A stretch of DNA of 64,000 nt, taken from NCBI RefSeq assembly GCF_037977055.1, contig NZ_CP150274.1, forward strand, positions 310,001-374,000. Direction: 5' to 3'. Below, piece after piece: positions 29,640 through 60,143 of this stretch. The position numbers and the translations under genes are program-made. This stretch comes from Paenibacillus sp. FSL K6-1096 (GTDB lineage: Bacteria; Bacillota; Bacilli; Paenibacillales; Paenibacillaceae). The notes under the pieces were generated by a model. It made no database searches and had not been told where the DNA came from. It was given only the letters and a program-made list of their open reading frames with translations. Positions within the stretch are counted from its first letter, which is position 1, and each line of letters starts with the position of its first letter.

Positions 29640-29906
29640 CGCATACATTCGCCCCACGCGCCTTCAGCGAGCCTATTGTATATTGTTTTTCACATACATT
29701 TGACACACGCGCCTTGAGCGAGCCTATTGTATTTTGTTTTTCACATACATTTGAACACATGCGCCTTGAGCGAGCCTATTGTATACTGTTTTCCACATAC
29801 ATTGGGCCCCACGCGCCTTCAGCGAGCCTATTGTATACTGTTTTTCGCATACATTTGGTCCACACACCCGCCGCTCGCCTATTGTATTCGGTATATCATA
29901 TACACA
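29640..29906. repeat. Tandem 51-52 bp palindromic repeat cluster A (five units)
   Basis: Five units repeat at 51-52 bp spacing. The 26-nt cores start at 29675, 29726, 29778, 29830 and 29881 (the last degenerate), and half a core lies at 29641-29650. Each core has arms like ATTGTATAC and CATACATT around a loop with GTTTTTC. GC-rich spacers such as CGCGCCTTGAGCGAGCCT lie between them. The cluster fills the gap between the acetyltransferase and helicase genes. On the minus strand the units read as NVCEKQYTIGSLKARGA, which makes spurious long ORFs. Clusters B and C are related. Confidence 0.88.
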
Positions 29907-29953
29907 CCTTATCCACGACAGAAGAGAATCATGATTTCCTAATAAACAAGCAA

Positions 29954-29985
29954 AGCCCTCTCTACGATCCACGTAAAAGAGGGCT
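29954..29985 (-). terminator. Terminator of the TerB/BrxD/helicase operon
   Basis: AGCCCTCT (29954-29961) and AGAGGGCT (29978-29985) form an 8-bp stem nine bases past the helicase stop. The T-run on the minus strand is weak (TTTG). Confidence 0.55.
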
Positions 29986-29993
29986 AATCTGTT

Positions 29994-32201
29994 CTATACT
30001 TGTGCAGGCGGCTGCCTCCATTGCTTTATTACGCTGAGCAGGCCGGGCACATCCAGCCCGTCAAGCGAAAAAGCCTTGCGCAGCAGATCATGCGGAATGA
30101 ACTCATCGTATTTGCCGAGATATGGGGCTTCATCCGGGCCAAGCAGCGCCAAGGCATCTGTAGCTGCTGTGGCTTCGGCGATGATCGCCTCCTCCAGCTC
30201 CTCTGCTTCCGTCTTGCCGGCAACCACCATATAATACGGCTCCATCGGTATGACGGAGCGCAGTCCCTGCGGCCCCTTCAGATTGTTCTTCAGCAGCCGT
30301 TCCAGCGTGCGGAACTGGCGGCTGCCTGCCCATGGCAGGATGAACATGGAGTCCCCTCCAGCCGGCAGTACCGGACGTGTCAGGAGGCCGCTCTCCTTGG
30401 CCAGCCTTCTTGCCCGCTCCAGTCTGGCGGCAGCGCTGGGCGCAAGATACGGATACAGCGCTGTAGAGCCCAGCACCTCACGGATCTTGGTCATGATCCG
30501 GGTATGAACATCACCGCCGGCCCCCAGCCATAGAGTGTCTACTTTGCCGCGCGAGCCTTTGACATAGACAGCCTTGTGGCGGTTGTCGACCTCCTCCACC
30601 TTCCACAGCTTGCCTGCCAAGGTGAAGCAGTAGCCCGGAGGCGGCACTGTCGTAATCGAACCGATCTCCTCCGTGCCGTTATAGACGACATGCTCTTCGT
30701 CATCCTTGAACACCGCGTAGAACCGGAAGTTGTTCACGATCTTCTCTCCGGCCAGTCCGATCAAGAGGCTGCCCTCATCCATCTTCTCAATATGCCCCAT
30801 GCCCAGCATATATTCCAAGAACGCATCATAATCCGCAGGGTCAATGCCGCGGAAGGAGGGCAGACTGAGCACCGCCTCCTTCAGCTCCTCCGGCTCCGCT
30901 TCACCCATGCTCTTCAGGATGCTCATCGTCTGATGATAGAGCAGCCCTACAGGCAGCTGGCGCACTGCCAGCGGCTCCACCCATTTCTCGCGCACATACA
31001 GCTCGATCACGGCAATGGCCCGCAGCAGCGTCCACGGCATCCGCGCGGGCAGCTGCGCCTCTTCGTCCTCCTCCTCGGGCGTGACGAAGATCATCTCCGA
31101 GGCGGCATCCCCCCGCCGCCCCGAACGGCCCAGCCGCTGTACGAAGCTCGCGCAGCTGTAGGGGGCACCGAGCTGGAGCACCCGGTCCAGCTCGCCCAGA
31201 TCAATGCCCAGCTCCAGCGTCAGCGTCGCCGCCGCCACAGCCGGCCCTGCGCCCTGCTTAAGCGCGGCCTCCGTCTCTTCGCGCAGCATCGCGGAGATGC
31301 TTCCATGATGCACATGGAAGACATCCCGCTCGCCGCGTTTCGCGGCAATGCGCCGCATCTCCAGAATCGCCTCTTCGGCGTCGGTGCGGCTGTTCGTGAA
31401 GATCAACGCTTTCTTGATATGCGTGTGATCGTAGATGAACCCGTAATACGCCTGTCGCGCCCGCTCCAGGTGTTCGGCCTCCTCCTCGTTCCGCGCATCC
31501 GGGAACGAGAAATGCTCCACGCTCAGCCGCAGCTTGCGCCCGCCCTGCGGAGCGCTGACCTCCACGCTCTCGCGTGTTCCCGCCGCCAGCCATTCCGTGA
31601 CGGAGGCGTAGTCGCTTAAGGTCGCCGAGAGGCCGATGCGCCGCGGATAACAGCCCGCCATCCGCGAGATCCGCGCCAGCTGGCTCAGCACCTGAATGCC
31701 GCGGTCCGCGCCCATGAACGCGTGCACTTCATCGATGATGATGAAGCGCAGATCATGGAACAGCGCCGGAATCGCATTCGGGCGGTTCATCAGCAGGCCC
31801 TCCAGCGATTCCGGGGTTATCTGCAGCACCCCCGAAGGGTTCTGCATCAGCTTCGTCTTATCCGCCTGGGGCACATCCCCATGCCAATGCCAGACCGGGA
31901 TATTGCCTTCGCGCAGCAGATCGTTCAGACGTGCGAACTGATCGTTGATCAGCGCCTTCAGCGGCGCGATATACAGAATGCCGACTGAGGCAGACGGACG
32001 CTCATACAGCCCCGTCAGCGCCGGGAAGAACGCCGCTTCCGTCTTGCCAGAAGCGGTCCCCGAAGCAATCAGCAGATGATGCGGCGTGTCGAACAGCACA
32101 CGGCAGGCATCGACCTGCGCCTCGCGCAGTGTATCCCAGCGGTTCTTGTAGATGAATTCCTTAATGAACGGAGCGAGCCGGTAGAACGGGTTATCGCTCA
32201 T
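29994..32201 (-). CDS. Lhr/BrxHI-like DEAD/DEAH-box helicase
   Basis: The 735-residue SF2 helicase shows motif I ASGTASGKTEA, motif II DEVH in IIIDEVHAF, motif III LSATLS, and motifs V and VI in LELGIDLGELDRVLQLG and QRLGRSGRRGD. The long C-terminal region resembles Lhr-type helicases, and the partner genes suggest the BrxHI branch. It unwinds or translocates on nucleic acid using ATP. Its start overlaps the BrxD-like gene by four bases. It is the last gene of the three-gene operon and may be the effector or the remodelling motor of a defence module. Confidence 0.85.
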   Translation of the reverse strand: MSDNPFYRLAPFIKEFIYKNRWDTLREAQVDACRVLFDTPHHLLIASGTASGKTEAAFFPALTGLYERPSASVGILYIAPLKALINDQFARLNDLLREGNIPVWHWHGDVPQADKTKLMQNPSGVLQITPESLEGLLMNRPNAIPALFHDLRFIIIDEVHAFMGADRGIQVLSQLARISRMAGCYPRRIGLSATLSDYASVTEWLAAGTRESVEVSAPQGGRKLRLSVEHFSFPDARNEEEAEHLERARQAYYGFIYDHTHIKKALIFTNSRTDAEEAILEMRRIAAKRGERDVFHVHHGSISAMLREETEAALKQGAGPAVAAATLTLELGIDLGELDRVLQLGAPYSCASFVQRLGRSGRRGDAASEMIFVTPEEEDEEAQLPARMPWTLLRAIAVIELYVREKWVEPLAVRQLPVGLLYHQTMSILKSMGEAEPEELKEAVLSLPSFRGIDPADYDAFLEYMLGMGHIEKMDEGSLLIGLAGEKIVNNFRFYAVFKDDEEHVVYNGTEEIGSITTVPPPGYCFTLAGKLWKVEEVDNRHKAVYVKGSRGKVDTLWLGAGGDVHTRIMTKIREVLGSTALYPYLAPSAAARLERARRLAKESGLLTRPVLPAGGDSMFILPWAGSRQFRTLERLLKNNLKGPQGLRSVIPMEPYYMVVAGKTEAEELEEAIIAEATAATDALALLGPDEAPYLGKYDEFIPHDLLRKAFSLDGLDVPGLLSVIKQWRQPPAQV

Positions 32202-33520
32202 AGGTCGAACTCCGCCAGGAAGCCGTCCAGCTCATTCTCGTTCTCCTGCGCAGCAGGCCGCGGGGTCTGCTCCCCGACCAGCTTCTCGAAGGTTACGTCC
32301 GGATGCTGGTGCAGGGTATGCAGCAGATCCATGAAGTCGCGCACCACCTCGCGTGCAGTAAGCAGCTCGTCCGCCCCCAGCCGGTTGACCGCCTCTTCCA
32401 TGAAGTGCACAAGCTGTTCCTGGGTAAGGCTGGCTTCATACCCGTAATGGAGGGCATGAATGTCACGCAGCTTCTGGAGCAGTATCAGAATCTCCTCATG
32501 GGAGAGCATGTCCAGCGCAATAATCGGCCCGGTGAAGTTATTCCGTCCGGACTCGGCATATCTTCCGGCCACCAGCCGGGAGCGCAGAGCCTCGTAGCTG
32601 AACAAGCCGCGCCGGGGGTCCTCCACGAACTGCGGCGTCCCCCCGATGAAGATGCCCAGCCGTTCAGCCTTGCCCTGCATCGTATCGTTGAACATAGTCA
32701 GCAGCTTCTCGTAATTGCTCTGCCGGGAGATGCTGTTCGTAATCTTGTAGAGGTTGACCCCTTCGTCGATGAACAGCAGCAGGCCCTTATAGCCGATGGC
32801 TCCGGTGAATTCAGCCCACAGCTTCATATAGTCATACCAGTTGTCATCGTCGATGATGACACCGACCCCCAGCGCCTTCCGGGCATCCGTCCGGGTCGGG
32901 AATTCCCCGCGCAGCCAGCGCAGCGCATCCTGCTTCAACCCGTCATCCGCCAGCAGATGCCCGTTCCAGTAGGATGCCAGCACCTTGGCGAAGTCGAAGC
33001 CGTGCACCAGCCCGCGCATCCCGGAGGCAACGGTATAGATCCGCTGCTCAACGAAGCTGCCAAGCTCAGGCGCACCCGGCCCGCAGCCCTTCTCCTGCAT
33101 CACCGCCTGCTGAAGCGTCATGATCCACTTCTGGAGCATAATCTCCAGCGCCCCGCCATCCGGGCGGGTCTTGGTGGAGAGATGGCTCATCAGCTCACGG
33201 TAGGTGGCGAGTCCCTGCCCCTTCGTGCCGACCAGCCGCCGCTCCGGCGAGAGGTCGGCGTCGGCGACCACGAAGTCCCGGTCCATCGCGTAATTGCGGA
33301 TGATCTGAAGCAGGAAGCTTTTGCCGCTGCCGAATTTGCCTGTAATCAGCTTGAAGGCGGCTCCGCCCTCGGCGATATTCTCCATATCGCGGAGAATCGC
33401 CTCCACCTCCGGCCGGCGGCCGACAGCGATGTGCTCCAGGCCAATCCGCGGCACAACCCCCGCTGTCAGGGAGTTCACGAGTGCGGTGGTCATCCGCTTC
33501 GGTATTTTGAGTGCGTTCAT
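32198..33520 (-). CDS. BrxD-like (DUF2791) P-loop ATPase
   Basis: The 440-residue AAA-like ATPase has Walker A ITGKFGSGKSFL (about 59-70), Walker B GLLLFIDEGVNLY, and a sensor region LGIFIGGTPQFVEDPRRGLF. The GTPQFVED segment and overall order match the DUF2791/BrxD family, known from type 2 BREX and from Ter-linked operons. I start it at ATG 33520 (MNALKIPKRM), after AGAGGTGA; a frame beginning 14 codons earlier would overlap the TerB gene. It sits between the TerB-N/C gene and the helicase gene. It probably acts as an ATP-driven sensor or loader for the helicase. Confidence 0.82.
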   Translation of the reverse strand: MNALKIPKRMTTALVNSLTAGVVPRIGLEHIAVGRRPEVEAILRDMENIAEGGAAFKLITGKFGSGKSFLLQIIRNYAMDRDFVVADADLSPERRLVGTKGQGLATYRELMSHLSTKTRPDGGALEIMLQKWIMTLQQAVMQEKGCGPGAPELGSFVEQRIYTVASGMRGLVHGFDFAKVLASYWNGHLLADDGLKQDALRWLRGEFPTRTDARKALGVGVIIDDDNWYDYMKLWAEFTGAIGYKGLLLFIDEGVNLYKITNSISRQSNYEKLLTMFNDTMQGKAERLGIFIGGTPQFVEDPRRGLFSYEALRSRLVAGRYAESGRNNFTGPIIALDMLSHEEILILLQKLRDIHALHYGYEASLTQEQLVHFMEEAVNRLGADELLTAREVVRDFMDLLHTLHQHPDVTFEKLVGEQTPRPAAQENENELDGFLAEFDL

Positions 33521-33528
33521 TGCTTCAT

Positions 33529-35151
33529 TCACCTCTTTAGATAGTCCAGCATCAATATACATTCTTCCGTCAGCTCTTCGCCGTCAATAACCAGGTCTCC
33601 CAGATTGTCCATGGCCAGCTCATTAATCTCATCATAGAGCAGCTCAGCCATCGTTCCTGCTTCCGCAGCCAGCCGTCCGGCCTTCAACGCACCGTCTGCT
33701 TCGGCCAATGCAAGCACGACCTCCCGTTGCAACGGACTCAGTACAGAAGCAAAGTGAACCCAAGCCTCCGCTTCGCCAGCCACGGCTGACAGGCTGGTCT
33801 CCACCACTGCTTCCGATACATGTCCGGCTTCCGCTCTAACTCCTTCGTTGTTCAGAGTTTCAACTCTAGCCTCTTCATGTTCTACCCGGCCACCGCCCGG
33901 TTCCTCTATCCCCGCCACTGCTCCAACCTGACTCCAAGCCGCTGCTTCATCCTCCGGCTCCACAGATTCCTCCACCGTGAGCAGCGAACGCACCACCTCA
34001 GAATCATTCTCCAGCTGCTCCAGCTTCTGCGGATCAATCACAACTGCCGGCCCCTTCTCTTCCTTCTCGGCCTTGCGGAATTCACGCTCCAGGAACCGGG
34101 TAATCAGCTCGTCCATATCGGCGTCGACCTTAATATCCTTCAGCCTTCCCCTGTATCCCAGAAGCGCGCGCAGCTTATTCTCGGTCAGCCGGAACAGGCG
34201 GGTAATCAAGCTGCGCAGCGGAGGGGACTTGCTGATCCGCACCACAGGCACCAGGACTGAGTAGCCATACAATGAGATATCGTATACGGCACTGCGGAAC
34301 AGATACCGCTCACGCATCACCGGCGGTCCGGGCGGGAACATCGTGATCAGATTCGAGTCGTGCTTGCGCGACACATAGGCATCAATTAAGGCTACGACCT
34401 GGGGAATATACCGTTCAGCCGCCGCTTTCCCTTCACCGGCATAGAACTTCGATTTGCTGATATCATAATCCGACATCACGCTAAGCACCTCAATGCTCAG
34501 CTGCTCCGGGGCGGATGTCAGGCAGCGGACCAGCTCCAGCTCCGCCAGATCACCGGCCAGCCCGCGCGAACGGGCCACAATCTCAGCGAGCGGCACATCC
34601 AGCTTATGTACAAAAGAGAAATCCGCCAGCCACCCGCCAAGATATTGATCCAGACGCTTATAGCTGTCCCGGTAGGCTTCCCAGAGCAGACTCAGCTGCC
34701 GGTATCCGTCCTGCGGCTCGTCCCAGCCGACACCGTTAATCAACTCATACGTATGCAGGAAAATATATGACAGATCCGTCTTCGGGTATCTTCCCTGACG
34801 CACTTCATCCCGCCAGAAGAAATACCATCTGCTCTGCGCTCCCGTCATATGCCCGTAGGTCGGCCAATAGCTCTTGAACGGGACGAACAGCGCCGCAGGC
34901 TCCTTATGGTCTACAAGCTCCCGGGCACGATGAACGAACTGGCTCTCCGTGGTGGTTACCGGCTCAGTGCTCTCCTCCATATCCCACAGCTGAAGCTGCA
35001 CGGCCGGCTTCTCCGCTTTCTTCTGCTCCGCTGCCGCCCGGGTCTCCGGCTGCTCCGCTTCGGCTGTTCCGCGCGGCGGTATCGCCATATTCTGCTCCGT
35101 GCTCTCCCAGACCAGCTCCGTGAAATGCAGCCCCTGCTTGTCTTTAGCCAT
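33529..35151 (-). CDS. TerB-N and TerB-C domain protein
   Basis: The 540-residue protein has a TerB-N domain (about 80-290) with QSRWYFFWRDEVRQGRYP, DLSYIFLHTYELINGVG and a helical core, a middle segment, a low-complexity acidic linker (about 390-455), and a TerB-C domain at the end (WVHFASVLSPLQREVVLAL, GDLVIDGEELTEEC). TerB-type domains bind metals and link to stress or phage responses in tellurite-resistance gene systems. ATG 35151 lacks a good ribosome-binding site, so an internal start is possible. It is the first gene of the operon with the BrxD-like ATPase and the helicase. Confidence 0.78.
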   Translation of the reverse strand: MAKDKQGLHFTELVWESTEQNMAIPPRGTAEAEQPETRAAAEQKKAEKPAVQLQLWDMEESTEPVTTTESQFVHRARELVDHKEPAALFVPFKSYWPTYGHMTGAQSRWYFFWRDEVRQGRYPKTDLSYIFLHTYELINGVGWDEPQDGYRQLSLLWEAYRDSYKRLDQYLGGWLADFSFVHKLDVPLAEIVARSRGLAGDLAELELVRCLTSAPEQLSIEVLSVMSDYDISKSKFYAGEGKAAAERYIPQVVALIDAYVSRKHDSNLITMFPPGPPVMRERYLFRSAVYDISLYGYSVLVPVVRISKSPPLRSLITRLFRLTENKLRALLGYRGRLKDIKVDADMDELITRFLEREFRKAEKEEKGPAVVIDPQKLEQLENDSEVVRSLLTVEESVEPEDEAAAWSQVGAVAGIEEPGGGRVEHEEARVETLNNEGVRAEAGHVSEAVVETSLSAVAGEAEAWVHFASVLSPLQREVVLALAEADGALKAGRLAAEAGTMAELLYDEINELAMDNLGDLVIDGEELTEECILMLDYLKR

Positions 35152-35536
35152 CCTTCATCGCCCCACCCGTAAGTCATGGTAATTCCCACATTATATCATA
35201 TACCCAAGCCAGCCGATGCAGCCGTACCCGTCCTAATCTCATTCTCAGCATAGTGCAGACGGACTGAGCTTCCGCTATTTTCAACAAATCTAGCCATTAC
35301 GCTAACCAAGCGGACTCAGAATCGCTTAATTGCACGCTGACGCCCATTTCGGAACCCAACACCTCATATTAAGCGCCTCTCAGTCCGCCCACACTCCAGG
35401 AAGCGGCTTTTTGAACAAATAACGGCCTGTGAGTCCGCATAACTTGTAAACAAACGAATCGACCAGCGTTTCGGATACTTCCAGACATTACGTCCAGCAC
35501 ATCCAGCACTCCCCGCACAAACCCCCGATTCATCAG
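35152..35536. other. Intergenic stretch with no gene apart from repeats
   Basis: No coding frame is credible between the TerB gene and the response regulator terminator. The stretch should hold the promoter of the TerB operon, but I see no clear -35/-10 pair. It contains four GCGGACT-type repeats listed separately. Confidence 0.5.
35259..35438. repeat. Four copies of a GCGGACT-type interspersed repeat
   Basis: Units of about 22 bp share the pattern GCGGACT-S-A-N4-CGCTTATTT. Two lie on the plus strand (35259-35280, 35310-35331) and two on the minus strand (35366-35388, 35417-35438), with spacings near 51, 56 and 51. Within each unit, GCGGA and TCCGC-like arms form a weak palindrome. The head-to-head arrangement suggests repeated local insertion or duplication of a small intergenic module. 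Confidence 0.7.
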
Positions 35537-35571
35537 AAAAAGACCTTGAGAGACTGGCTCCTCAAGATCTT
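35537..35571 (-). terminator. Terminator of the second sugar operon
   Basis: AAGACCTTGAG (35540-35550) pairs with CTCAAGATCTT (35561-35571) with one mismatch, and T5 follows on the minus strand. Confidence 0.7.
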
Positions 35572-35646
35572 GGATAAGAACGTCCGTTTGTGTCTCCCTA
35601 AGAATATACTATACTCCGCCCGCAGGCTGCAATAGCCTATGCACCC

Positions 35647-37266
35647 TCATCCTTTCATATAATCACTCGGGCTGCGCCCGGTAACCATCTTGAAGACCTG
35701 GCTGAAATACGCGGGATTGTTGAAGCCCACCATTTCACTGATTTCATACACCATGTGCTGGCCGGATTGGAGGAATTCTATCGCCCGGCCGATCCGGTAC
35801 TGGTTCAGGTAGCTGACGAAATTCTCACCGCTGATCCGTTTGAACAGCTGGCTCAGATATTTCGGATGCACATGCAGCTCCTGCGCCAGGCCCATGAAGC
35901 TGATTTCCTGGTTATAGTGGACCTCCACATAGCTTTTGACGCTCTCTACCAGCCGGTTCTTCTTAACATTCATTTCCGTGAAGGCTGCTCGCAGGAATTC
36001 GGGAAAAGTCTGCCCCATCCACTCCGTCAGACTTCTGCCGTTGTAATAGCCCGACACCGCCTGAAGAAATTCGGCCATGCTCATCGGTGGAGTCCGGCCC
36101 GGGCAACAGGCATTCCAATAATACATCAGCGCAGTGAACAGCCCGACACATACCGTCTGTATATCCTGGAGATGCTGCAGCTCATCCTGCCGGAGCCTGC
36201 CGTAGATGATCTCCCAGGTCTCCCATATTTTTGGCGTCTCCTTGCGCAGCAGCACCTCATTCCACTCCTGAAGCAGCCGGGAATAATCCTCCAGAGTCCA
36301 CAGGTTGTCAGCTCTGCACGGTTCATAAGCATAGATGGGGCTGGTCTCCTGAAATTCTGCAGCGGCCAGCGCCTCTCTGCTCTCCAGATAAGCATCGATC
36401 AGCTCATGGATGGCCGCTTTGACGGAACCGATGCCGGCATAGGCCTGAAGCTGAACGTAATTCCGAATTTTATCCATCATCTCCTGCACCGCCTCCTTCA
36501 GAACCGGGATCAGCTCTCCCGCTTCACGGTCCAGCAGCAGCACCACCAGCAGATCGTCGGAATAGTCCAGCACATGACCCTGCACCGAAGGATGTCCGGC
36601 CAGCTTGTGCTGGAGCGTCTCCCTGCAGATATTGCCGGCTCCGAAGCGCAGCAGCTGCCATTCGCGTTCCTTCAGCTTATGCAGCGGCAACGGGCGGTTA
36701 AGCTGGATGCTGGCTGCGGCCAGCCGCTGCGGATGTGTGATTTGAAGGTAACCGAGCCGTTCCTCGGAGCATTCATCCGCGCTGTAGCGTGTGGTCAGCA
36801 GCTCCAGCAGCAGACGTTCCCGCAGAAAAGGAAGCGTGCGGCCGATCTCCTGCTTGTAGCGCTCCTCCAGCTGTTTTTGCTGCTCGCCGGCTTCCAGCTC
36901 CAGCAGCACCGCACGGAGTACCGCTTCGATCTCCTGGACCCGGGCCGGCTTCAGCAGGAAATGGCTCACCCCCCAGCGCATCGCCTGGCGGGCATTCTCG
37001 AATTCCTCGTACCCGCTCAATATAATGATTGGCAGCTCCGGCGACAGCTCCCGCAGTGCCTCCGTAAGCTCCAATCCGCTCATCCCCGGCATATAGACAT
37101 CGGTCATCACCAGATCGGGGGTACCCTTGCGGAACAGCTCCAGCGCCTCACTGCCGTTGACTGCCGCTCCGGCTATGGTCAGGCCAAGCTTCTCCCAGCC
37201 CACATGTCTCGTAAGGGCTTTCAGAATGTGCGGGTCGTCATCCACCAGCAGAATGGACCTGCTCAT
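35647..37266 (-). CDS. YesN-type response regulator with AraC HTH (second set)
   Basis: The 539-residue protein has a receiver domain with Asp56 in VMTDVYMPGMSG and Lys in FLLKPAR, a long middle domain, and a C-terminal AraC HTH ending MVTGRSPSDYMKG. The start at ATG 37266 overlaps the kinase stop by four bases (ATGA). It is the last gene of the second binding-protein/permease/kinase/regulator operon, arranged as in the first set at 22.7-29 kb. Confidence 0.92.
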   Translation of the reverse strand: MSRSILLVDDDPHILKALTRHVGWEKLGLTIAGAAVNGSEALELFRKGTPDLVMTDVYMPGMSGLELTEALRELSPELPIIILSGYEEFENARQAMRWGVSHFLLKPARVQEIEAVLRAVLLELEAGEQQKQLEERYKQEIGRTLPFLRERLLLELLTTRYSADECSEERLGYLQITHPQRLAAASIQLNRPLPLHKLKEREWQLLRFGAGNICRETLQHKLAGHPSVQGHVLDYSDDLLVVLLLDREAGELIPVLKEAVQEMMDKIRNYVQLQAYAGIGSVKAAIHELIDAYLESREALAAAEFQETSPIYAYEPCRADNLWTLEDYSRLLQEWNEVLLRKETPKIWETWEIIYGRLRQDELQHLQDIQTVCVGLFTALMYYWNACCPGRTPPMSMAEFLQAVSGYYNGRSLTEWMGQTFPEFLRAAFTEMNVKKNRLVESVKSYVEVHYNQEISFMGLAQELHVHPKYLSQLFKRISGENFVSYLNQYRIGRAIEFLQSGQHMVYEISEMVGFNNPAYFSQVFKMVTGRSPSDYMKG

Positions 37267-39956: not shown

Positions 39957-39959
39957 AGC

Positions 39960-44568: not shown

Positions 44569-44683
44569 AGATGGCAACCCTCCACCATTTGATATTTCAC
44601 TGAAAAGTTCGTACAATAGGTTCATATGAACTCATAATATGAGTATAACCTATTTTAGGGACGAAAGGGATGGTAAAGATTAT

Positions 44684-46006
44684 ATGGGTATAGGACTTAG
44701 TTTGACGCTCGTGGCAATTTTGATTATTTTAACGGCATTTTTTGTAGCGACGGAGTTTGCAGTAGTGAGATTGCGGGGCAGCCAGGTCAGCCAGATGGTG
44801 CTGGACGGCAAGAAGAATGCACTGGCGGTACAGCGGGTAGCCGCTAACCTGGACGGATATCTGTCCGCCTGCCAGCTCGGTATCACCATTACTGCACTCG
44901 GGATCGGGGCCTTGGCTGAGCCTGCCTTTGAGCAGCTCATCATCCCGCTGTTTGATCTCTTTGGTATTGCGCACAGCGTCAGCGAACCCATAGCATTCGG
45001 AGTGGCCTTCATCATTGCCACCTTCCTGCATGTCGTGGTGGGTGAGCTTGCACCGAAGACCGCCGCTATTAATATTCCGGAGAAAATTGGTCAATTTACC
45101 GCACCGCTGATTATTTGGTTCTACAGAATATTGTACCCTTTGATTTGGTTCATGAATGGTTCCGCCAACCTGCTCGTCCGTATGTTCGGCATGAAGCCTG
45201 CCAGTGAACACGGCGACGCCCACAGCGAAGACGAGATCCGCCTGATCCTGTCCGAGAGCTATGAGAGCGGCAAAATCAACAAAGCGGAGTATGGTTATGT
45301 TAACCGTATTTTCACCTTTGATGAGATGCTGGCCAAGGAAATTATGGTGCCCCGCACCGATATGGTCTGCCTGTTCACCGATCATTCGCTGCAGGAGAAT
45401 ATCGCAATCATCCGCAAGGAGCAGTATACGCGATTCCCTGTTGCAGACGGCAGCAAAGATAATATCGTTGGTATGATCAACACCAAGCAGCTCTACCTGC
45501 AATATGACAACAACCCGGATTTCGATTTCAAAAGCCTGATCCAGCCTCTGCTGACTGTATCGGAGGTCACACCGGTGAAGACTCTGCTGACCCGTATGCA
45601 GAAGGAAGGCGTGCATATCGCCCTGCTGCTCGATGAATACGGCGGCACCTCCGGCCTGATTACAATTGAGGACATTCTGGAAGAGATCGTCGGCGAGATC
45701 CGTGACGAATTCGACGAGGATGAACGCAAGAATGTAGAGAAGCTGAGCGAGAACCATTACCTGTTCGACGGCAATGTGTCTCTGCTGGAGGTCAAAGAGG
45801 TCACAGGCCTGGATCTCCACGATGAGGAAGTCACCACCATCGGCGGATGGCTCTACAGTCACTTGGAAGAACCGGCTGTCGGCAAAAGCATGCTCTACGA
45901 GCATACCACGCTCACAGTGCGTGAGATGAACCGCCACCGCATCCGCCGGGTCGAGATCAAGATTGATCTTCCGGCCTTAGAGGATACTGCAGTTCACAGC
46001 GAGTAA
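44684..46006 (+). CDS. CNNM/CBS (HlyC/CorC) family membrane protein
   Basis: The 440-residue protein has an N-terminal CNNM domain with four helices (about 1-190, TEFAVVRLRGSQVSQM, HVVVGELAPKTAAINIPEKI), a pair of CBS domains (about 200-330, MVPRTDMVCLF and LLDEYGGTSGLITIEDILEE) and a C-terminal CorC domain (about 345-430). Such proteins transport or regulate Mg2+ and related cations. ATG 44684 is preferred; a frame starting 44639 lacks a site. A terminator follows at 46031-46066. Confidence 0.88.
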   Translation: MGIGLSLTLVAILIILTAFFVATEFAVVRLRGSQVSQMVLDGKKNALAVQRVAANLDGYLSACQLGITITALGIGALAEPAFEQLIIPLFDLFGIAHSVSEPIAFGVAFIIATFLHVVVGELAPKTAAINIPEKIGQFTAPLIIWFYRILYPLIWFMNGSANLLVRMFGMKPASEHGDAHSEDEIRLILSESYESGKINKAEYGYVNRIFTFDEMLAKEIMVPRTDMVCLFTDHSLQENIAIIRKEQYTRFPVADGSKDNIVGMINTKQLYLQYDNNPDFDFKSLIQPLLTVSEVTPVKTLLTRMQKEGVHIALLLDEYGGTSGLITIEDILEEIVGEIRDEFDEDERKNVEKLSENHYLFDGNVSLLEVKEVTGLDLHDEEVTTIGGWLYSHLEEPAVGKSMLYEHTTLTVREMNRHRIRRVEIKIDLPALEDTAVHSE

Positions 46007-46030: not shown

Positions 46031-46066
46031 TAAGGCGCTTCCCTGGAGGTAATGGGGAGCGCCTTA
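46031..46066 (+). terminator. Terminator after the CNNM/CBS gene
   Basis: TAAGGCGCT with CCC pairs with GGG and AGCGCCTTA, a stem of about 12 bp with one bulge, followed by CTTTG. Confidence 0.7.
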
Positions 46067-46147
46067 CTTTGTTCTTGTATAGGAAATTATAGTTTCCTAC
46101 TACAGTGGAAACCGAATAAAATTGGCTGGTACAGCGCCTATAGACCA

Positions 46148-46335
46148 AATGTATGTGAAAAACAATATACATTGTGCCGCAAACGGGCATATGGACTAAA
46201 TGTATGTGAAAAACAGCATACATTGTGTTCGCAAACAGGAACACGGTCTGAATGTATGTAAAAAACAACATACATTGTGCTGCAAGCGGGCAATTGGACC
46301 ACATGTATGTGAAAAACAGCATATATTGTGTTCGC
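46148..46335. repeat. Tandem 51-52 bp palindromic repeat cluster B (four units)
   Basis: Four 26-nt cores start at 46148, 46199, 46251 and 46302. They are oriented opposite to cluster A: arms AATGTATG and CATACATT around TGAAAAACAG. GC-rich spacers of 25 bp (such as GTGCCGCAAACGGGCATATG) separate them. The cluster lies between the convergent CNNM/CBS and acetyltransferase genes. It is the same core as cluster A on the other strand. Confidence 0.88.
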
Positions 46336-46376
46336 GCGAATTCGTTAAAATGATTCTTCCCCTATATTTAATGCAA

Positions 46377-53096: not shown

Positions 53097-53684
53097 TTAG
53101 TTAAGCTTATCATAAGTGTCTGATCCCATACAGCGGATTCCCGCAATATAGGTGTTAATCAGCCGGGTAAGCGTGACATTCAGGTCCAGCGGCATTCCAA
53201 ATCCGCCTTGATGATCCAGGGTGGACAATCCGTGCAAGATACTCCGTAATCCACGGACAGCATGAAGATTTCCTTCCTCGTCCAATCCGAAACCGGATAT
53301 CACATGGATGACCAGCGACAGAATCTTGTCGCTGGCTGCTTCCAGAGCGGTGTTGCCTTGTTCCGGAGCTTTTAGCGTGGTTTGATATAGCCCCGGGTGG
53401 GCTCTGGTAAATCCGATGTAAGCCTTACTCATGGCATGGACCGCTGCCGCTCCGCTCAGCCCCTTCGTCGCCTCCGATATGACCTTATACAACTGCTCCT
53501 GGCCATAAATAGCGAGCAGGGTACGCAGCCCCGAGAGTCCGTTAATATGATTATAGAGCGACGGAGAACGGACACCCAGCTTCGCAGCTAATGCAGCCAG
53601 CGTCACTTCTTCAATCCCGTATTCGTCCGCCAGCTCTGCCGCAGCCAGCACCAGCGTGTGTGTATCCAGCCCTGCTCTAGCCAT
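53097..53684 (-). CDS. TetR family transcriptional regulator
   Basis: The 195-residue protein has an N-terminal HTH (about 8-52, YGIEEVTLAALAAKLGVRSP followed by SLYNHINGLSGLR) and a C-terminal ligand domain of the TetR_C_13/WHG type with CMGSDTYD near the end. GGGAGGAGGG precedes ATG 53684. It overlaps the MBL gene by eight bases and probably binds the double palindrome at 54420-54465 to repress the operon. Confidence 0.88.
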   Translation of the reverse strand: MARAGLDTHTLVLAAAELADEYGIEEVTLAALAAKLGVRSPSLYNHINGLSGLRTLLAIYGQEQLYKVISEATKGLSGAAAVHAMSKAYIGFTRAHPGLYQTTLKAPEQGNTALEAASDKILSLVIHVISGFGLDEEGNLHAVRGLRSILHGLSTLDHQGGFGMPLDLNVTLTRLINTYIAGIRCMGSDTYDKLN

Positions 53685-54405
53685 GCACCGTCCCTCCTCC
53701 CTTGACCAGCACTTCCGCCTCAGCAGCCGCGCGCTTCATAGCTGCTACCGGGTCCCGCAGCAGATCCCCGTGTCCTACCCCCAGCAAGGTTGGGTCAAGC
53801 TCAATCAGCTTATACGCGCTGGCCAGCGCCTGCTCCACATTCCAGGTAGCCATCGCCGGAAAAGGGAACCAGGGCACCTTCTTGCCGGACACCGCTGTAG
53901 CCCGGAACGTCTGGAAGGCATCCCCCGCAACTACAGCTCCGCTGCGTTGATCCCGGAACGACATCGAACCCGGCGTATGCCCGGGCGTACTAACAGCAAC
54001 AAGTGATCCGATACGGTCACCTTCATGCAGCAGTACATCGGGTCTCGTTAAGATCTTAGACGGCACACTGCCCTTAACCGGAGCCTGCGGCTCACCGGGT
54101 CTTAGCGAACGGTCACCGGCAAGCAGCGAAGCATCCCGCTCCGAGATGTAGACCTTCGCCTGTGGAAGATGCTGCTTCAAGGCATCCAGCGCCCCGACAT
54201 GATCCATATGACCATGCGTCAGCACGATCCGGGTAAGCGGCTTCTGAAGCTTGGCCGCCTGGCGCAGAATTCCTTTCGTACTATAGGACATTCCCGCATC
54301 TATAAGTGTAAGCTCCTGCTCTTCTTCGATTAAATAACAATTCACCGGAAACACACTCGGCAGCCACGTCAGCTGAAACAAATTGCCTTCCTGAGTCACT
54401 CTCAT
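53677..54405 (-). CDS. MBL-fold metallo-hydrolase
   Basis: The 242-residue protein has the metal-binding motif THGHMDHVGA (HxHxDH), SYSTKGILRQ and later Asp/His ligands in VSTPGHTPGSMSF and VVAGDAF. It is a glyoxalase II-like hydrolase; the substrate is unknown. GGGGGAG precedes ATG 54405. It is the first gene of the MBL/TetR/AlkZ-related operon. A drug or electrophile response is suggested by the TetR regulation. Confidence 0.88.
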   Translation of the reverse strand: MRVTQEGNLFQLTWLPSVFPVNCYLIEEEQELTLIDAGMSYSTKGILRQAAKLQKPLTRIVLTHGHMDHVGALDALKQHLPQAKVYISERDASLLAGDRSLRPGEPQAPVKGSVPSKILTRPDVLLHEGDRIGSLVAVSTPGHTPGSMSFRDQRSGAVVAGDAFQTFRATAVSGKKVPWFPFPAMATWNVEQALASAYKLIELDPTLLGVGHGDLLRDPVAAMKRAAAEAEVLVKGGGTVHG

Positions 54406-54419
54406 TCGTTCTCCCCCTA

Positions 54420-54465
54420 AAAACTAACCTTATTAGTTTAAATATAAACTAATAAGGTTAGTTTT
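54420..54465. promoter_or_regulatory. Double TetR operator: 46-bp inverted repeat
   Basis: Two 21-bp arms (54420-54440 and 54445-54465) are exact reverse complements around four bases. Each arm also holds its own palindrome of AAACTAA, five bases, TTAGTTT (54421-54439 and 54446-54464). Two dimers could bind 25 bp apart. The site overlaps the promoter region of the MBL gene. Confidence 0.85.
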
Positions 54466-54477
54466 GCAAGAGGTATT

Positions 54478-54510
54478 AAAAAAGACCCAGGGCAACATCT
54501 GCCCGGGTCT
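54478..54510 (-). terminator. Terminator after the Rpn remnant
   Basis: AGACCC with GGGCA pairs with TGCCC and GGGTCT around a short loop, and T6 follows on the minus strand. Confidence 0.78.
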
Positions 54511-54520
54511 GTATTCACAT

Positions 54521-54983
54521 TCACATCAGTTTCTTAATCTCATCAAGTGGCAGTTCAACGGCTTTGGATACCGCCTCGGGAGAAAATCCGTGGAGCAACA
54601 ATTTACGGATAATCTCCACCTGGCCTTCTTCTTTGCCTTTCTCAATACCCTCTTCATAACCCCAACGCTTCCAAGCTGGCATAAGCTCCATAATTGCTTC
54701 TCCCTCCTCCGGATAGTGATCGATTAATTCTCTTAAAATTTCTTCATCCTGTGCCCGGTCCGGCTTGAAGTACAGGTCCGCTACTGACATAATCAATGCC
54801 AACCTGCCTTGATCCAGCCGCGTCCTCAGCTTCATGAACATCCGCAGGAATTCCCGGCGCACCTCTCTCGCTTCTCTTGTAGTATACCCCTTCTTCGCCA
54901 ATAACGCAGCAGCCACCGCATTATCCGAATCGATGAACCGACGACAATTCTGCTTGCGCAGCTCCACCTTAAGAAACTGGAAC
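54521..54983 (-). pseudogene. C-terminal remnant of an Rpn/YhgA-type nuclease
   Basis: The visible frame (about 150 residues from FQFLKVELRKQNCRRFIDSD) matches the C-terminal half of Rpn-family recombination-promoting nucleases: the VREFLRMFMKLRTRLDQGRL-like helix, and a coiled EEGIEKGKEEGQVEIIRKLL tail. The N-terminal PD-(D/E)XK nuclease part is missing. The open frame reaches back through the pstB terminator, but that part is not homologous. So the gene was cut at about 54983 next to the pst operon. It still has its own terminator. Confidence 0.75.
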
Positions 54984-55012
54984 CAAAAAAACACCACCCG
55001 CAATGGGTGGTG
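54984..55012 (-). terminator. Terminator of the pst operon
   Basis: CACCACCCG and GGGTGGTG pair around GCAAT or similar, and T7 follows on the minus strand, 22 bases past the pstB stop. Confidence 0.85.
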
Positions 55013-55034
55013 CCTCTCCTCTAATATATATGCG

Positions 55035-55811
55035 TCACCCAAACCGGCCCATAATGTATTCCTGGGTCATTTGGTTCTCCGGGTTGCTGAAGACCTTCTC
55101 GGTCTTGTCGTATTCCACCAGCGAGCCTAAGTAGAAATACGCTGTGTAATCCGAGATACGCGCTGCCTGCTGCATGTTGTGGGTGACGATGACGATGCGC
55201 AGCTCCTCCTTCAGCTCCTTAATCAGCTCCTCTACCTTGCCGGTCGATACCGGGTCCAGGGCTGAGGCCGGCTCATCCAGCAGCAGAATCTGCGGATTGA
55301 CCGAGAGCGCCCGGGCGATGCACAGCCGCTGCTGCTGTCCGCCGGACAGGGCCAGTGCCGAGTCCTTCAGACGGTCTTTGACCTCATCCCACAGGGCGGC
55401 GCGGCGCAGGCTGCTCTCTACAATCTCATCCAGCGCCTGCTTGCCCTTGATGCCATGGTACTTGGGACCGAAGGCGATATTGTCATAGATCGATTTATAA
55501 AAAGGGTTCGGCTTCTGCCAGACCATGCCGATTTTCTGGCGCAGCTTAATCACATCGGTTCCGGGCGCATTGATGTCCACTCCGTCAATCCAGATGCTCC
55601 CTTTGGTGGTCGAGCCGGAAATATCATCATTCATCCGGTTAAGTGACCGGAGGAAGGTGGACTTCCCGCAGCCCGAGGGCCCGATCAGCGCGGTTACCGT
55701 ATTCTGGGCGAACGGCAGGCTAATCCCCTTCACCGCCTCATAGGTTCCATAGAATATACTCAGGTCCTCCGTTTGAAACGACTCACGTACTGCTGGCTCC
55801 GCGATTCCCAT
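55035..55811 (-). CDS. pstB: Phosphate ABC transporter ATP-binding protein
   Basis: The 258-residue ATPase has Walker [22 protein letters not shown], the phosphate-specific [10 protein letters not shown], signature [16 protein letters not shown] and Walker [13 protein letters not shown]. It powers high-affinity phosphate uptake with PstSCA. AGGAGGAATTAAG precedes ATG 55811. It is the last gene of pstSCAB; no phoU follows. Confidence 0.95.
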
Positions 55812-55858
55812 CTTAATTCCTCCTACAGGCTCTTTTTGTAATGCGGCTTGTCAAATCC

Positions 55859-56755
55859 TTAGCTCATCCGCTTGGAGGCGGTCAGCTTCTTGTAGATGAA
55901 TCTGCCGAAGTAACGGGCAGCCAGATTGAAGATCAGCACTGTCAGTACCAGTACGGCCGAAGCTCCGGCAGCAATCTGTACCGCATCCGGCGCCAGGCCT
56001 TCACTGTTAACCTTCCAGATATGCACCGCCAGTGTCTCTGCCGGACGGAACGGGTTGAGCGGCGATGAAGGGCTCAGCGGGTTCCAGTTGCTGAAGTCCA
56101 GCCGCGGGCTGCTCATCCCCGCAGTGAACATCAGCGCGGCGGCTTCCCCGAAGACGCGTCCGGCCGACAGGATCGTACCCGTGATAATAGTCGGAAGCGC
56201 GACCGGGAATAGTACACTGGTTACGATTTTCCATTTGGACAAGCCAAGGGCGAACCCTGCTTCCTTCTGCTGCTTGGGCACCGTGCGGAAAGCCTGCTCC
56301 GTGATACGCACCATCAGCGGCAAATTGAACACCGTCAGCGCCAGTGCGCCGGAGATCAGGGAGAAGCCGAGATTGAAGGTGTTGACGATCAGCAGGAGGC
56401 CGAACAGACCGACAATAATCGACGGGAAGGACGACAGCACCTCCACGATCAGCCGGATGAAATTGGTCAGCTTGCCGGGACGGGCATATTCCGCCATGAA
56501 TATCCCTGCGCCCAGACCGAGCGGCACTGTAATGATCAAGGTCAGCACCAGCAGGAACAGCGAGTTGAACAGCTGCGGCCCCACGCCCCCGCCTGCGCGG
56601 ATCTTCTGCGGCGCTGAGGTCAGGAAGTCCCAGCTGATATGGTTAAAGCCGCGGATCAGAATATACCCCAAGAGGCCTATAAGCACAGCTACAATCAGTA
56701 ATGCGAAGGTTACAATAACAACAGTGGCTATTTTGTCAGCAGTTCTCGGCTTCAA
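55859..56755 (-). CDS. pstA: Phosphate ABC transporter permease PstA
   Basis: The 298-residue permease has six helices and typical segments GVGPQLFNSLFLLVLTLIIT and the docking loop EQAFRTVPKQQKEAGFALGL. Its TTG start overlaps the pstC stop (TTGA), with AAGGAGA before it. It pairs with PstC. Confidence 0.93.
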   Translation of the reverse strand: MKPRTADKIATVVIVTFALLIVAVLIGLLGYILIRGFNHISWDFLTSAPQKIRAGGGVGPQLFNSLFLLVLTLIITVPLGLGAGIFMAEYARPGKLTNFIRLIVEVLSSFPSIIVGLFGLLLIVNTFNLGFSLISGALALTVFNLPLMVRITEQAFRTVPKQQKEAGFALGLSKWKIVTSVLFPVALPTIITGTILSAGRVFGEAAALMFTAGMSSPRLDFSNWNPLSPSSPLNPFRPAETLAVHIWKVNSEGLAPDAVQIAAGASAVLVLTVLIFNLAARYFGRFIYKKLTASKRMS

Positions 56756-57654
56756 ATTTTATTTCTCCTTTCGAGCATTCTGACCAGCAGGACGAAGATA
56801 AAGGTCATCAGCATCAGAACCAGCGCCATACTCCACAGCGCATTGTTCTGCGGTGAACCCATCGTTGTATTCCCCATGCCCAGCGTAATTACACTGGTAA
56901 GTGTAGACGCGGACTCGAACAGGGAATGAGGCACAAACGGTGCGTTACCGATAACCATCTGTACTGCCAATGCTTCACCGAATGCACGGGCCATGCCAAG
57001 GACCACCCCGGTCATAATCGCCGGAAAGGTAGTCGGGAGAATCACCCGGGAGATCGTCTGCCAGCGGGTGGCACCGAGCGCGAAGGAGGATTCCTTCAGG
57101 TTCTGCGGCAGCGATGCAAGCGCGTCTGCAGCCACGCTGGTGATCGTCGGAAGAATCATGACCGACAGCACTAGCGCGCCTGCAGCCACCCCGATGCCCT
57201 GGCCGGGCAGCGTATCCCGCAGGAATGGAACAATGACGCTTAAGCCTACGAATCCGTAGACAACGGACGGGATGCCTGACAGCAGCTCGATGACCGGCTG
57301 CAGCAGCTTTTTACCCCAGCCTGGGACAATCTCTGTCATGAACAGTGCCGCGCAAATGCTCAGCGGGCTGGCGATAAGCGCTGCGAGCAGGGTGACCAGG
57401 AAGGACCCCGAGATGAACGGTAAGGCTCCATAGGACGGCGTCTCCGCTTCGGGTGACCACCTTGTGCCCAACAGGAATTCAGATATTTTCACTTCACCGC
57501 TCACGAAGTTGGCAATGCCTTTGGAGGCTACGAAATAAACCATGGAAATAATGATGACAATGAGCAGCAGCACGCAAAAGGACATATAAATACGTCCGAT
57601 TAAATTTTCTATATGATGTTTTTCCAGCCGCTTGTTTGTTGGTTGTCCCCTCAA
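56752..57654 (-). CDS. pstC: Phosphate ABC transporter permease PstC
   Basis: The 300-residue permease shows GALPFISGSFLVTLLAALIA, LLSGIPSVVYGFVGLSVIVP and the docking loop DALASLPQNLKESSFALGAT. It begins at TTG 57654 with AGGGAG upstream. A small hairpin (57683-57705) between pstS and pstC probably reduces expression after the abundant binding protein. Confidence 0.93.
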   Translation of the reverse strand: MRGQPTNKRLEKHHIENLIGRIYMSFCVLLLIVIIISMVYFVASKGIANFVSGEVKISEFLLGTRWSPEAETPSYGALPFISGSFLVTLLAALIASPLSICAALFMTEIVPGWGKKLLQPVIELLSGIPSVVYGFVGLSVIVPFLRDTLPGQGIGVAAGALVLSVMILPTITSVAADALASLPQNLKESSFALGATRWQTISRVILPTTFPAIMTGVVLGMARAFGEALAVQMVIGNAPFVPHSLFESASTLTSVITLGMGNTTMGSPQNNALWSMALVLMLMTFIFVLLVRMLERRNKI

Positions 57655-57682
57655 GAATGCTCCCTCTTTCTAAAGTGAAAAG

Positions 57683-57705
57683 AGAGGCAGAAGGTATCCG
57701 CCTCT
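57683..57705 (-). promoter_or_regulatory. Intercistronic hairpin between pstS and pstC
   Basis: AGAGGC (57683-57688) and GCCTCT (57700-57705) pair; CTCTTTTC follows on the minus strand. It may act as a weak attenuator. Confidence 0.55.
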
Positions 57706-57743
57706 AATCACATTAAAGTTCTGATTCATCAACCCTGTGTGAA

Positions 57744-58694
57744 TTATTTAGGAGTTACAGTGCCTGCAACATCGCGCGATACCTGCATTTTGGAAGCCGG
57801 GATGTAGCCAAGCTCCACAACGTCGCCGGTCTGTACTTCATCGGTCATGAAGTAGTCCAGGAAGGCTTTTACCGTCCCATTCGGTTCACCGTTTGTGTAC
57901 ATGTGCTCGTAAGCCCATACCGGATACTTACCGGCGACTACGTTGTCAACAGAAGGCTCTACGCCGTCATAGTTGAGGGTCTTTACAGTATCATCCAGGT
58001 AAGACAGCGCCAGATAACCGATGGCTCCCGGAGTTTCGCCGATCATTTTCTTAACCGTACCGGAGGAATCCTCCTGGATTGAGCCCTTCAGGTCCTCAGT
58101 CTTGGTGCCCAGAGCGAAGCTCTCGAAGGTAGCGCGTGTTCCGGAGCTTGCCGGACGGTTGATGATCTGGATGGCCTGGTCAGCGCCGCCAACGTCTTTC
58201 CAGTTCGTGATTTTACCGGTGAAAATATCAACCAGCTGCTGCTTCGTCAGACTGTCCACGCCTGCTGCCGGGTTGCTTACTGCTGCAATCGCAACAACCG
58301 CCACCTGATGATCCTTCAGCTCAGCCGCTTTTGCTGCATCCTTCAGCTTCTCTTCGGCGAATACGTCGGAGTTCCCGATGTCAACCTGCTTCTCCGAGAC
58401 CTGAGTCAGCCCGGTTCCGCTGCCGCCGCCTTGGACCTGAATGTCCACGCCGCTGTTGGTTTCCATGAATTTCTCGGCGACCTGCTCAACGAGCGGCTGA
58501 AGTGCTGTGGAGCCCGATGCCAGGATCGATCCGCTTAAGTTAGCACCGCTGCTGGCTTCTGTGTTTGTTGCAGCCGGTGTGTTTCCTCCGTTATTGGATG
58601 CTGCCTTGTTTCCCCCGTTGTTACCGCCACATGCTGAAAGTGCTACTACGCCCGTAAGCGCCAAAGCCATGAGCCACGTTTTTCTGAATTGCAT
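57744..58694 (-). CDS. pstS: Phosphate-binding lipoprotein PstS
   Basis: The 316-residue protein has a lipobox ALSAC (Cys22), a Gly/Asn linker, and phosphate-binding segments GSTALQPLVEQV, GGGSGTGLTQV, and RPASSGTRATFESF. AGGAGGAAAAC precedes ATG 58694. It captures phosphate outside the membrane for PstCAB. I could not identify a clear PhoP box upstream. Confidence 0.95.
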   Translation of the reverse strand: MQFRKTWLMALALTGVVALSACGGNNGGNKAASNNGGNTPAATNTEASSGANLSGSILASGSTALQPLVEQVAEKFMETNSGVDIQVQGGGSGTGLTQVSEKQVDIGNSDVFAEEKLKDAAKAAELKDHQVAVVAIAAVSNPAAGVDSLTKQQLVDIFTGKITNWKDVGGADQAIQIINRPASSGTRATFESFALGTKTEDLKGSIQEDSSGTVKKMIGETPGAIGYLALSYLDDTVKTLNYDGVEPSVDNVVAGKYPVWAYEHMYTNGEPNGTVKAFLDYFMTDEVQTGDVVELGYIPASKMQVSRDVAGTVTPK

Positions 58695-58954
58695 TGTTTG
58701 TTTTCCTCCTAAAGGTTTTGTGAGTGTGTGCCATGTTCCATCTGCTTCGTACAAAACGCACTCGGGAAGCATTATTGCTTATCTATCAGCGTCTCTTCTG
58801 ACTCTTCTTATTCTAGGACCCGTTCGTTAGATAAAAGTACAGAGTTTGTAAAACGAAAGATAAAAGTTATAATATAAATTGTATGGAGGTATAGATAATT
58901 TCTATATTCAAACAACAATCGCCAGCAAATCGCCGCGCACCCGGAGGAATTTTC

Positions 58955-59842
58955 ATGAACCTTGTAAAGCTGCAAATCCTGGTCCTGATCGAAAAATATA
59001 AAAAAGTAACGGATGTCGCCGCAGAGATGGGCCTGAAGCAGCCCACGGTATCCTTTCATATGAAAAGCCTGGAAAGCGAGCTGGGCGCTTCCCTGTTCCA
59101 GTACCGGAGCGGCCGTGTGCTGCTGACGGATGCCGGACGCGCCTTGCACCAGTATGCTGTCCGCATGGTATCCCTGGCTGCCGAAGCAGAGCGTGCGGTC
59201 AAGCAGTTTACTTCCCTGGCTTCGGGCAATCTGGAGCTTGCTGCCAGCAGCATACCCGGTAATTATCTTGTGCCCAAACTGCTGTCCCGATTCATGCAGC
59301 AGCATGAAGGGATCAATGTCTACTTATCCGTGCTGCCGGATGAGACCATTCGCGAGCGCCTGCGCAGCCGGGAGATTCAACTGGCGGTACTGCATAGCGC
59401 AGAGGGCCAGGACGATTCCTTCCAGACACAGGTGATCTCGGCGGATGAGATGGTGCTGGCTTTTACGCCTGACCACCCGTTTGCCGGTATGGAGCAGCTT
59501 ACGGTGGAAGCGGTAGCGCGGGAGCCTTGGGTGCAGCATGAGGCCGCCTCCTTCCTACGGGGGGCCGCAGATCAGTGGGCACAGCTCAATAACGTGAGGG
59601 TATGGAACCATGCGGTGCTGGGCTCACCCGAGGCCGTCAAAAGCATGCTGTGTGCAGGCGGTGCAGTCGGAGTATACTCTATGGCAGGGATTGCAGCCGA
59701 GGCCGCGACAGGTCGTCTAGCCTATGCGAAGCTGCCGGGAATTCAACCCGGGGATGGGGCATTCGTGCTGGCCTGGCGGAAGGATTACACGCTGTCCCCG
59801 TTGCAGAAGGCGTTTGCTCAGATGGCGGGGACGTCCGGGTGA
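58955..59842 (+). CDS. LysR family transcriptional regulator
   Basis: The 295-residue protein has the N-terminal winged helix (KVTDVAAEMGLKQPTVSFHM) and a two-lobe effector domain (about 90-290). GGAGGAATTTTC precedes ATG 58955. It is divergent from pstS, so it may act on itself or a more distant target; a link to phosphate is not established. Confidence 0.88.
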   Translation: MNLVKLQILVLIEKYKKVTDVAAEMGLKQPTVSFHMKSLESELGASLFQYRSGRVLLTDAGRALHQYAVRMVSLAAEAERAVKQFTSLASGNLELAASSIPGNYLVPKLLSRFMQQHEGINVYLSVLPDETIRERLRSREIQLAVLHSAEGQDDSFQTQVISADEMVLAFTPDHPFAGMEQLTVEAVAREPWVQHEAASFLRGAADQWAQLNNVRVWNHAVLGSPEAVKSMLCAGGAVGVYSMAGIAAEAATGRLAYAKLPGIQPGDGAFVLAWRKDYTLSPLQKAFAQMAGTSG

Positions 59843-59918
59843 AGAACTCCCCCCTAACAGGTGGCTGATGCTGGTGCTAATGCTCATATAACCTGCCCGC
59901 CTACCTCCGCCGTCGCCC

Positions 59919-60143
59919 AATGTAATCGGTTTTTCGATTACATTCGGCCCACGCACCCTCACGCAGCCAATTGTGATCGGTTTTTCGTTTTCATTTGACC
60001 CACGCGCCCATGCAACGCCAAATGTGATCGGTTTTTCGATTACATTGGGCTCACACGCCCATACAGCGCCGAATGTGATCGGTTTTTCGACTATATCCGG
60101 CCCCCCACTCCTGTTCAATATGTTCGGTTTCTCGCATACGTTT
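59919..60143. repeat. Tandem 51 bp palindromic repeat cluster C (four to five units)
   Basis: Cores start at 59919, 59970, 60021 and 60072 with exact 51-bp spacing, and a degenerate one is near 60119. The first core is a perfect 10-bp stem, AATGTAATCG and CGATTACATT, around GTTTTT. GC-rich spacers (CGGCCCACGCACCCTCACGC and like) lie between. In cluster C both arms differ from clusters A and B but still pair. It lies between the convergent LysR and methyltransferase genes. Confidence 0.88.

Follow-up and report, generated by a model that had tools for sequence, protein, structure and literature searches.

What are the tandem palindromes that fill three intergenic gaps in a 64,000-nt stretch of the Paenibacillus sp. 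FSL K6-1096 genome (7.19 Mb, single contig), and how did they come to lie there? A preliminary description of this stretch (hereafter, the window) reported three clusters, here called A, B, and C, in which a 26-nt palindromic core recurs every 51–52 bp close to gene 3' ends. It proposed that both arms of the palindrome had changed together, so that pairing rather than sequence is maintained, and it named structured RNAs, protein-binding sites, and substrates of a repetitive extragenic palindromic (REP)-like transposase as possible identities. We found the clusters to be part of a large family of tandem palindromic repeats that is restricted to one lineage. As to its origin, the reading that we favor, at about even chances, is a family of mobile non-coding tandem elements that insert behind terminators during chromosome replication, by the action of an enzyme not found here. 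This mobile, terminator-targeted reading stands because it is carried by a test on slots between convergent genes and by slots that are empty in relatives.

The core is a 26-bp imperfect palindrome centered on an A-run and reads AATGTA...GAAAAAC...ACATT on the analyzed strand; in this reading, clusters A and C lie on the minus strand and cluster B on the plus strand. In the window, the A/B core pattern matched eight times and the C core pattern three times, each against 0.00 expected, which bears out the three clusters and their period. A pattern search of the whole genome returned 931 matches (control, 4), so the family is not confined to these copies. Copies were then defined as matches of at least 14 bits to a profile trained on cores, in a sample made up of the window and 120 stretches of 20 kb (2.464 Mb, 34% of the genome), where all matches in reversed sequence scored below 11 bits. 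This profile search gave 362 copies in 89 arrays of 1–12 units, 22 of them single units, and about 260 arrays are expected in the whole genome. Neighboring units are spaced by 51 or 52 bp in 260 of 273 cases, and all units of every array lie on one strand (89/89), in direct rather than alternating order. Linkers are more alike within arrays (similarity, 0.75) than between arrays (0.48), and the cores are variable. Array density is even from origin to terminus (30–47 arrays per Mb). Only 3 of the 89 arrays overlap a gene called with our own script, which is not a published caller (1979 genes in the sample).

The family is patchily distributed. At least 20 matches were found in 36 of 394 Paenibacillaceae genomes (highest control count, 13), namely 24 of 100 genomes in Paenibacillus, including that analyzed here, and 12 of 294 in other genera; these patterns would miss genomes with unrelated arms. 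Another pattern search of 361 Bacilli genomes outside Paenibacillaceae gave no genome with more than three matches, and an exact-pattern scan of named genomes gave loci in Paenibacillus piscarius, P. silagei, and P. tritici. In the other genera, the arms and linkers differ, and the A-run and the 51/52-bp register are kept: 12 such arrays, pre-selected for this spacing, have 53 intervals between units, 42 of them of 51 or 52 bp and 11 of twice or three times this length. The statement that the family is undescribed also held, as the open-license literature, judged from titles and the starts of abstracts and with subscription papers outside the scope, contained no recognizable description.

The placement of the arrays follows gene ends. 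After 8 of the 89 arrays were left out at stretch edges, 81 were flanked by a called gene on either side; in 71 of these, the upstream gene is on the array strand, and the array lies at a median of 96 nt past its stop codon, in agreement with the reported placement near gene 3' ends; codirectional downstream genes lie at a median distance of 248 nt. A simple caller for intrinsic terminators, applied to the 130 nt upstream of each array, found one in 58 of 89 cases, compared with 147 of 400 random gene ends (Fisher p = 1.4e-6), a contrast that looks inflated relative to operon ends because the random genes include operon-internal ones. By intergenic class, 29 arrays are convergent and 4 divergent (15 of the 89 were unclassified), while 184 convergent and 229 divergent regions were available.

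Replication direction is the second rule of placement. The sign of the GC skew flips at 310–330 kb and again at 3.672–3.715 Mb, and boundaries at 318 kb and 3.69 Mb were used for leading/lagging counts. The origin and terminus were placed on GC skew because the sample gave neither a dif match with a Bacillus subtilis motif nor a DnaA-box cluster. In the window, the skew switches sign at about positions 1–20,000, and the window therefore likely contains the replication terminus. Relative to these boundaries, 81 of 89 arrays point along the leading strand, compared with 1535 of 1979 called genes (p = 0.0013). In convergent-gene slots, in which an array comes after a gene whichever way it points, 26 of 29 arrays lie along the leading strand (p = 1.5e-5). 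Because these slots split 26:3 in favor of the leading gene, we rejected gene-following as the sole rule of orientation. Array instability alone likewise fails to explain the polarity, because single units (20 of 22 on the leading strand) are as polar as long arrays. A similar tally was made in two relatives by collapsing the best matches to arrays by hand and taking as testable those bracketed by sparse GC-skew samples of the same sign. Among the matches listed, 21 of 21 testable arrays in one genome (G217) and 25 of 26 in the other (G084) agree with GC skew; a further 11 arrays in G217 lie where the skew is flat or switches sign, and a further 22 in G084 were set aside. In a third relative (G197), 14 of 16 listed arrays match a two-zone strand pattern, a comparison in which skew data had no part.

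The third line of evidence comes from slots that are occupied here and empty in relatives, for which the features of the three loci are needed (window positions).

29675..29906, minus strand: cluster A, five cores (29675–29700, 29726–29751, 29778–29803, 29830–29855, and a degenerate one at 29881–29906)
near 29640: partial copy of a cluster A unit
29952..29986, minus strand: intrinsic terminator behind the helicase gene, before A in array orientation, its hairpin and T-rich tail read directly
29994..32201, minus strand: DEAD/DEAH helicase gene, upstream neighbor of A
44639..46006, plus strand: CNNM/CorC-type transporter gene, upstream neighbor of B
46033..46071, plus strand: intrinsic terminator that follows the CNNM gene and precedes B; relatives that lack the array, e.g., G126, have it too
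about 46082..46366, plus strand: segment missing from G126 at locus B (short leader, array, and trailer), edges within several bases
46148..46327, plus strand: cluster B, four cores (46148–46173, 46199–46224, 46251–46276, and 46302–46327)
59843..60156, minus strand: segment missing from G165 (array C and its edges, from the terminator T-run on), edges within a few bases
59919..60142, minus strand: cluster C, five cores (59919–59944, 59970–59995, 60021–60046, 60072–60097, and 60117–60142), of which the profile takes all five and the exact pattern three
60157..60208, minus strand: intrinsic terminator behind the methyltransferase gene, whose T-run is the C insertion point
60221..61078, minus strand: methyltransferase gene, upstream neighbor of C

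Array A starts 87 nt past the helicase stop codon. Locus C was compared in ten relatives. In five of them (G165, G376, G279, G197, and G231), a LysR gene runs almost directly into the terminator and the slot is empty; the C segment of this genome measures about 314 bp and begins at the terminator T-run. Another relative (G134) has a short gap at this place, three (G126, G217, and G202) have other sequence, and G084 has an array of a different arm type in the same place and orientation. At locus B, 30 relatives were compared, 18 of which are without any core. The profile found cores in G084, G231, G376 (other arm type), and G165 (one core), a shortened core was recognized by eye in G279, and the rest gave no readable gap (G197, G217, G134, and G256) or no downstream anchor (G157, G212, and G367). 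A short TATA is possibly duplicated at B. A third array, at 6,996,593, begins about 8 nt past a T-run and is absent from G165, G126, G197, and G352; the alignments of G279 and G134 span it. At all three slots, the adjoining terminator is present both with and without the array. As a separate observation, an inverted-repeat element (GAAACGGCTTCGCCGTCC...GGACGG...CCGTTTC) was seen in the same post-gene slot at locus C of G126, G217, and G084 (L345, L346, and L349).

How might such insertion work? Class C group II introns offer an analogy: the excerpts of two studies describe them as inserting directly after terminators with a strong strand bias (PMC8919778; PMC4424553). The favored strand is termed lagging in the excerpted text of PMC8919778, which probably denotes the lagging-strand template, that is, the annotated leading strand. 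By this analogy, the target of the repeats would be the one proposed for these introns, a terminator hairpin exposed as single-stranded DNA in the lagging-strand template. One unit, or a few, may insert there as a seed and then be extended by in-register duplication, and the register of 51–52 bp, about five helical turns, might be the mark of a protein that recognizes dyad sites. Going further, and more doubtfully, the repeats could represent a new class of mobile DNA, in which coding-free tandem palindromes share the homing rule of class C introns, are moved by a fork-coupled enzyme, and have a five-turn register set by a protein.

A number of observations weigh against insertion of mobile elements behind terminators. 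The simple caller gave no terminator for 31 of the 89 arrays, and on the reverse strand of the same arrays it gave one in 35 of 89. Eight of the 89 arrays oppose the leading strand, including cluster B, which lies some 35–40 kb from the skew switch, and array polarity exceeds gene polarity just moderately. At the two insertion edges of C and of the array at 6,996,593, neither a clear target-site duplication nor a clear terminal inverted repeat was seen, and arrays have leaders and trailers in common only if they belong to the same subfamily. Certain absences can be losses, since G165 retains one core at B; a possible remnant is present at one locus of this genome where a relative has a core (the L186 comparison), and the cluster A locus is occupied at equal length in G165. 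As for a mobilizing enzyme, Y1_Tnp (PF01797) has no match in the whole genome, although the same search was positive in 5 of 14 control genomes; only one reverse transcriptase match is found in the whole genome, and the numbers of reverse transcriptases and repeats do not track each other in 50 chosen genomes. Insertion events cannot be dated because the genes at these loci differ by about 9–16% from those of G165, the nearest relative in the comparison.

The reverse transcriptase is a group II maturase of 430 aa in which no endonuclease domain was matched. We rejected reverse transcriptase as a general driver because its count fails to track the repeat count: seven genomes have repeats without a reverse transcriptase match (G236, G331, G379, G191, G053, G064, and G044), and three have 14–18 such matches with repeats at the control level (G179, G336, and G330). 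In G197, seven of eight reverse transcriptase matches lie on the strand of their own zone and one at a zone boundary. In the genome analyzed here, the intron (L320:680-2598, about 4,589,270–4,591,190) is placed behind a terminator and ahead of an array leader and ends 93 nt before the first core; it is likely of class C, as judged from its features rather than with a class-specific model. One array subfamily (L226, L320, and the arrays of this genome at 6,431,078 and 7,072,681) is marked by a leader that is itself palindromic (TAGGAAACTATAGTTTCCTA-like) and by a hairpin trailer with T-rich sequence behind it. No leader common to all arrays was found: the motif occurs in 15 of the 89 stretches upstream of arrays, close to its background rate (0.12 per stretch). 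The 129 proteins encoded beside the arrays (60–700 aa, at most 700 nt from an array) matched 210 Pfam families; the 25 families listed include no evident partner, being ordinary, and the commonest occurs in 5 of the 129 proteins.

Two further elements were found with the arrays. Two very similar IS110-family elements (L121:6766-8448 and L144:2885-4549), identified by domain scans of one copy, sit in the A-run loop of a core and split their arrays, with junctions that look alike. IS110-family elements insert into REPs. A second repeat family (CCTGCAAAATGTGCAACAATG-like) was matched 60 times in the sample, against once in the reversed control. Of the 60 matches, 20 lie within 600 bp of an array, e.g., of the arrays at 1,147,179, 1,510,422, 4,360,733, 4,676,216, and 4,926,176, and the family seems to split some arrays.

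Four other explanations have to be weighed against mobile insertion. The first, which we consider rather improbable, is that the arrays serve the host: a homodimer would bind each dyad at a phasing of about five turns, and the arrays would act behind terminators as nucleoid, insulator, or fork-polarity elements, much as bacterial interspersed mosaic elements (BIMEs) bind gyrase or integration host factor. In line with this, the 51–52 bp register persists in other genera despite their other linkers, the arrays are spread evenly from origin to terminus, and half-sites of the form TGTRNNYG recur in both arms. The arms themselves are often unpaired, positions 2-25 and 6-21 being paired in just 53% and 49% of 356 cores, and a dyad read by a protein may fit the half-sites at least as well as RNA pairing does. 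The protein-binding option of the preliminary description has the fixed register and the similar half-sites in its favor, but no binder was found, and the patchy occurrence and the slots that are empty in relatives count against a host function.

Passive spread appears improbable. Here, the units would be copied by slippage and by ectopic recombination or template switches among terminator regions, and selection would purge copies that lie ahead of genes or point the wrong way. Five arrays are flanked on both sides by similar terminators, as one cassette, and this, the greater likeness of linkers within arrays, and the scarcity of divergent-gene arrays (4 vs. 29 convergent) all suit such a process. 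It accords poorly with the C insertion, which begins at the T-run with no evident shared flank beyond, and with single units that are as polar as long arrays.

That the repeats are a structured RNA, or a backup terminator for transcripts that read through, is very unlikely, even though the upstream gene is so often on the array strand and some covariation exists. Compensatory change had been set beforehand as the test. In 44 aligned units, 79.5% of cells are paired, compared with 74.6% after shuffling, and with one core taken per array, pair 7-20 stands above permutation and pair 8-19 less so. Within the arrays of this genome, total pairing reaches 2645 against 2605.6 permuted, a value attained in 0 of 1000 permutations; among intact units, 7-20 (227 vs. 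203.9 permuted) is the only strongly coupled pair. Part of this coupling can stem from common descent of the units or from their joint decay. Changes between neighboring intact units are one-sided in 302 cases and two-sided in 23. Coupling was not seen in the 12 arrays from other genera, where 280 of 1000 permutations gave at least as much pairing as observed. At 96 informative junctions, an arm goes with that of its own unit in 13 cases and with that of the next unit in 15, so neither is preferred. The earlier view that both arms changed together survives only in part, within arrays and chiefly at 7-20, and stem pairing is not strictly kept. Read as RNA, the cores fold with a mean energy of only -4.6 kcal/mol (shuffled, -0.8), which also speaks against pairing, rather than sequence, being what is maintained. 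Many arrays lie downstream of a terminator, no Rfam family, group II RNA included, scored at or above its gathering threshold anywhere in the window, and clusters B and C, which unlike A were searched separately, gave only matches far below family scores. Moreover, if the element acted for its upstream gene, there would be little reason to expect the 26:3 preference for the leading gene in convergent slots. REP or REPIN elements mobilized by a RAYT (Y1) transposase, the REP-like option of the preliminary description, are hardly credible: the repeats are palindromic, intergenic, and of high copy number, and two sampled arrays contain an IS110-family element, but the PF01797 search found no such partner in this genome, so that a RAYT would have to have been lost, and the units are direct rather than alternating.

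Mobile insertion behind terminators thus remains the reading that we favor. Whatever moves it, this is a high-copy repeat placed by two rules, terminator-bearing gene ends and replication direction, for which we have so far found no mobility gene. It provides a test case for DNA insertion at terminator hairpins during replication and for a putative protein that recognizes dyads set five turns apart. A further lesson is that palindromic repeats with apparent covariation are not necessarily RNAs.

Among known systems, KOPS and SRS are polar chromosome motifs, 8-mers spread through genes. They share with the repeats a leading-strand orientation across the chromosome, whereas the repeats form long intergenic palindromic arrays. 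Compared with a clustered regularly interspaced short palindromic repeat (CRISPR) array, which has near-identical repeats and unique spacers, the arrays have variable cores and linkers that are 75% alike within arrays; cas genes were not searched for. Class C group II introns, as far as the excerpts of PMC8919778 and PMC4424553 describe them, have in common with the repeats insertion after terminators (58/89 here) and a replication strand bias (81/89 here), whereas the repeats carry no ribozyme or reverse transcriptase, are tandem, and do not track reverse transcriptase number. Miniature inverted-repeat transposable elements (MITEs), bcr1, BOX, and RUP, in the excerpted accounts (PMC3733652; PMC3049150), are likewise small non-coding intergenic elements, likely moved by a factor encoded elsewhere, and differ from the repeats, which are tandem and lack clear inverted termini or target duplication at two edges. 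Finally, the REP, BIME, and REPIN families, as the excerpts of PMC2817692 and PMC3116915 present them, are also short, extragenic, clustered palindromes in hundreds of copies. The family described here consists instead of direct tandem units of 51–52 bp, has no Y1 match, and was found in Paenibacillaceae only, and, compared with those accounts, its relation to terminators and to the direction of replication is a feature of its own.

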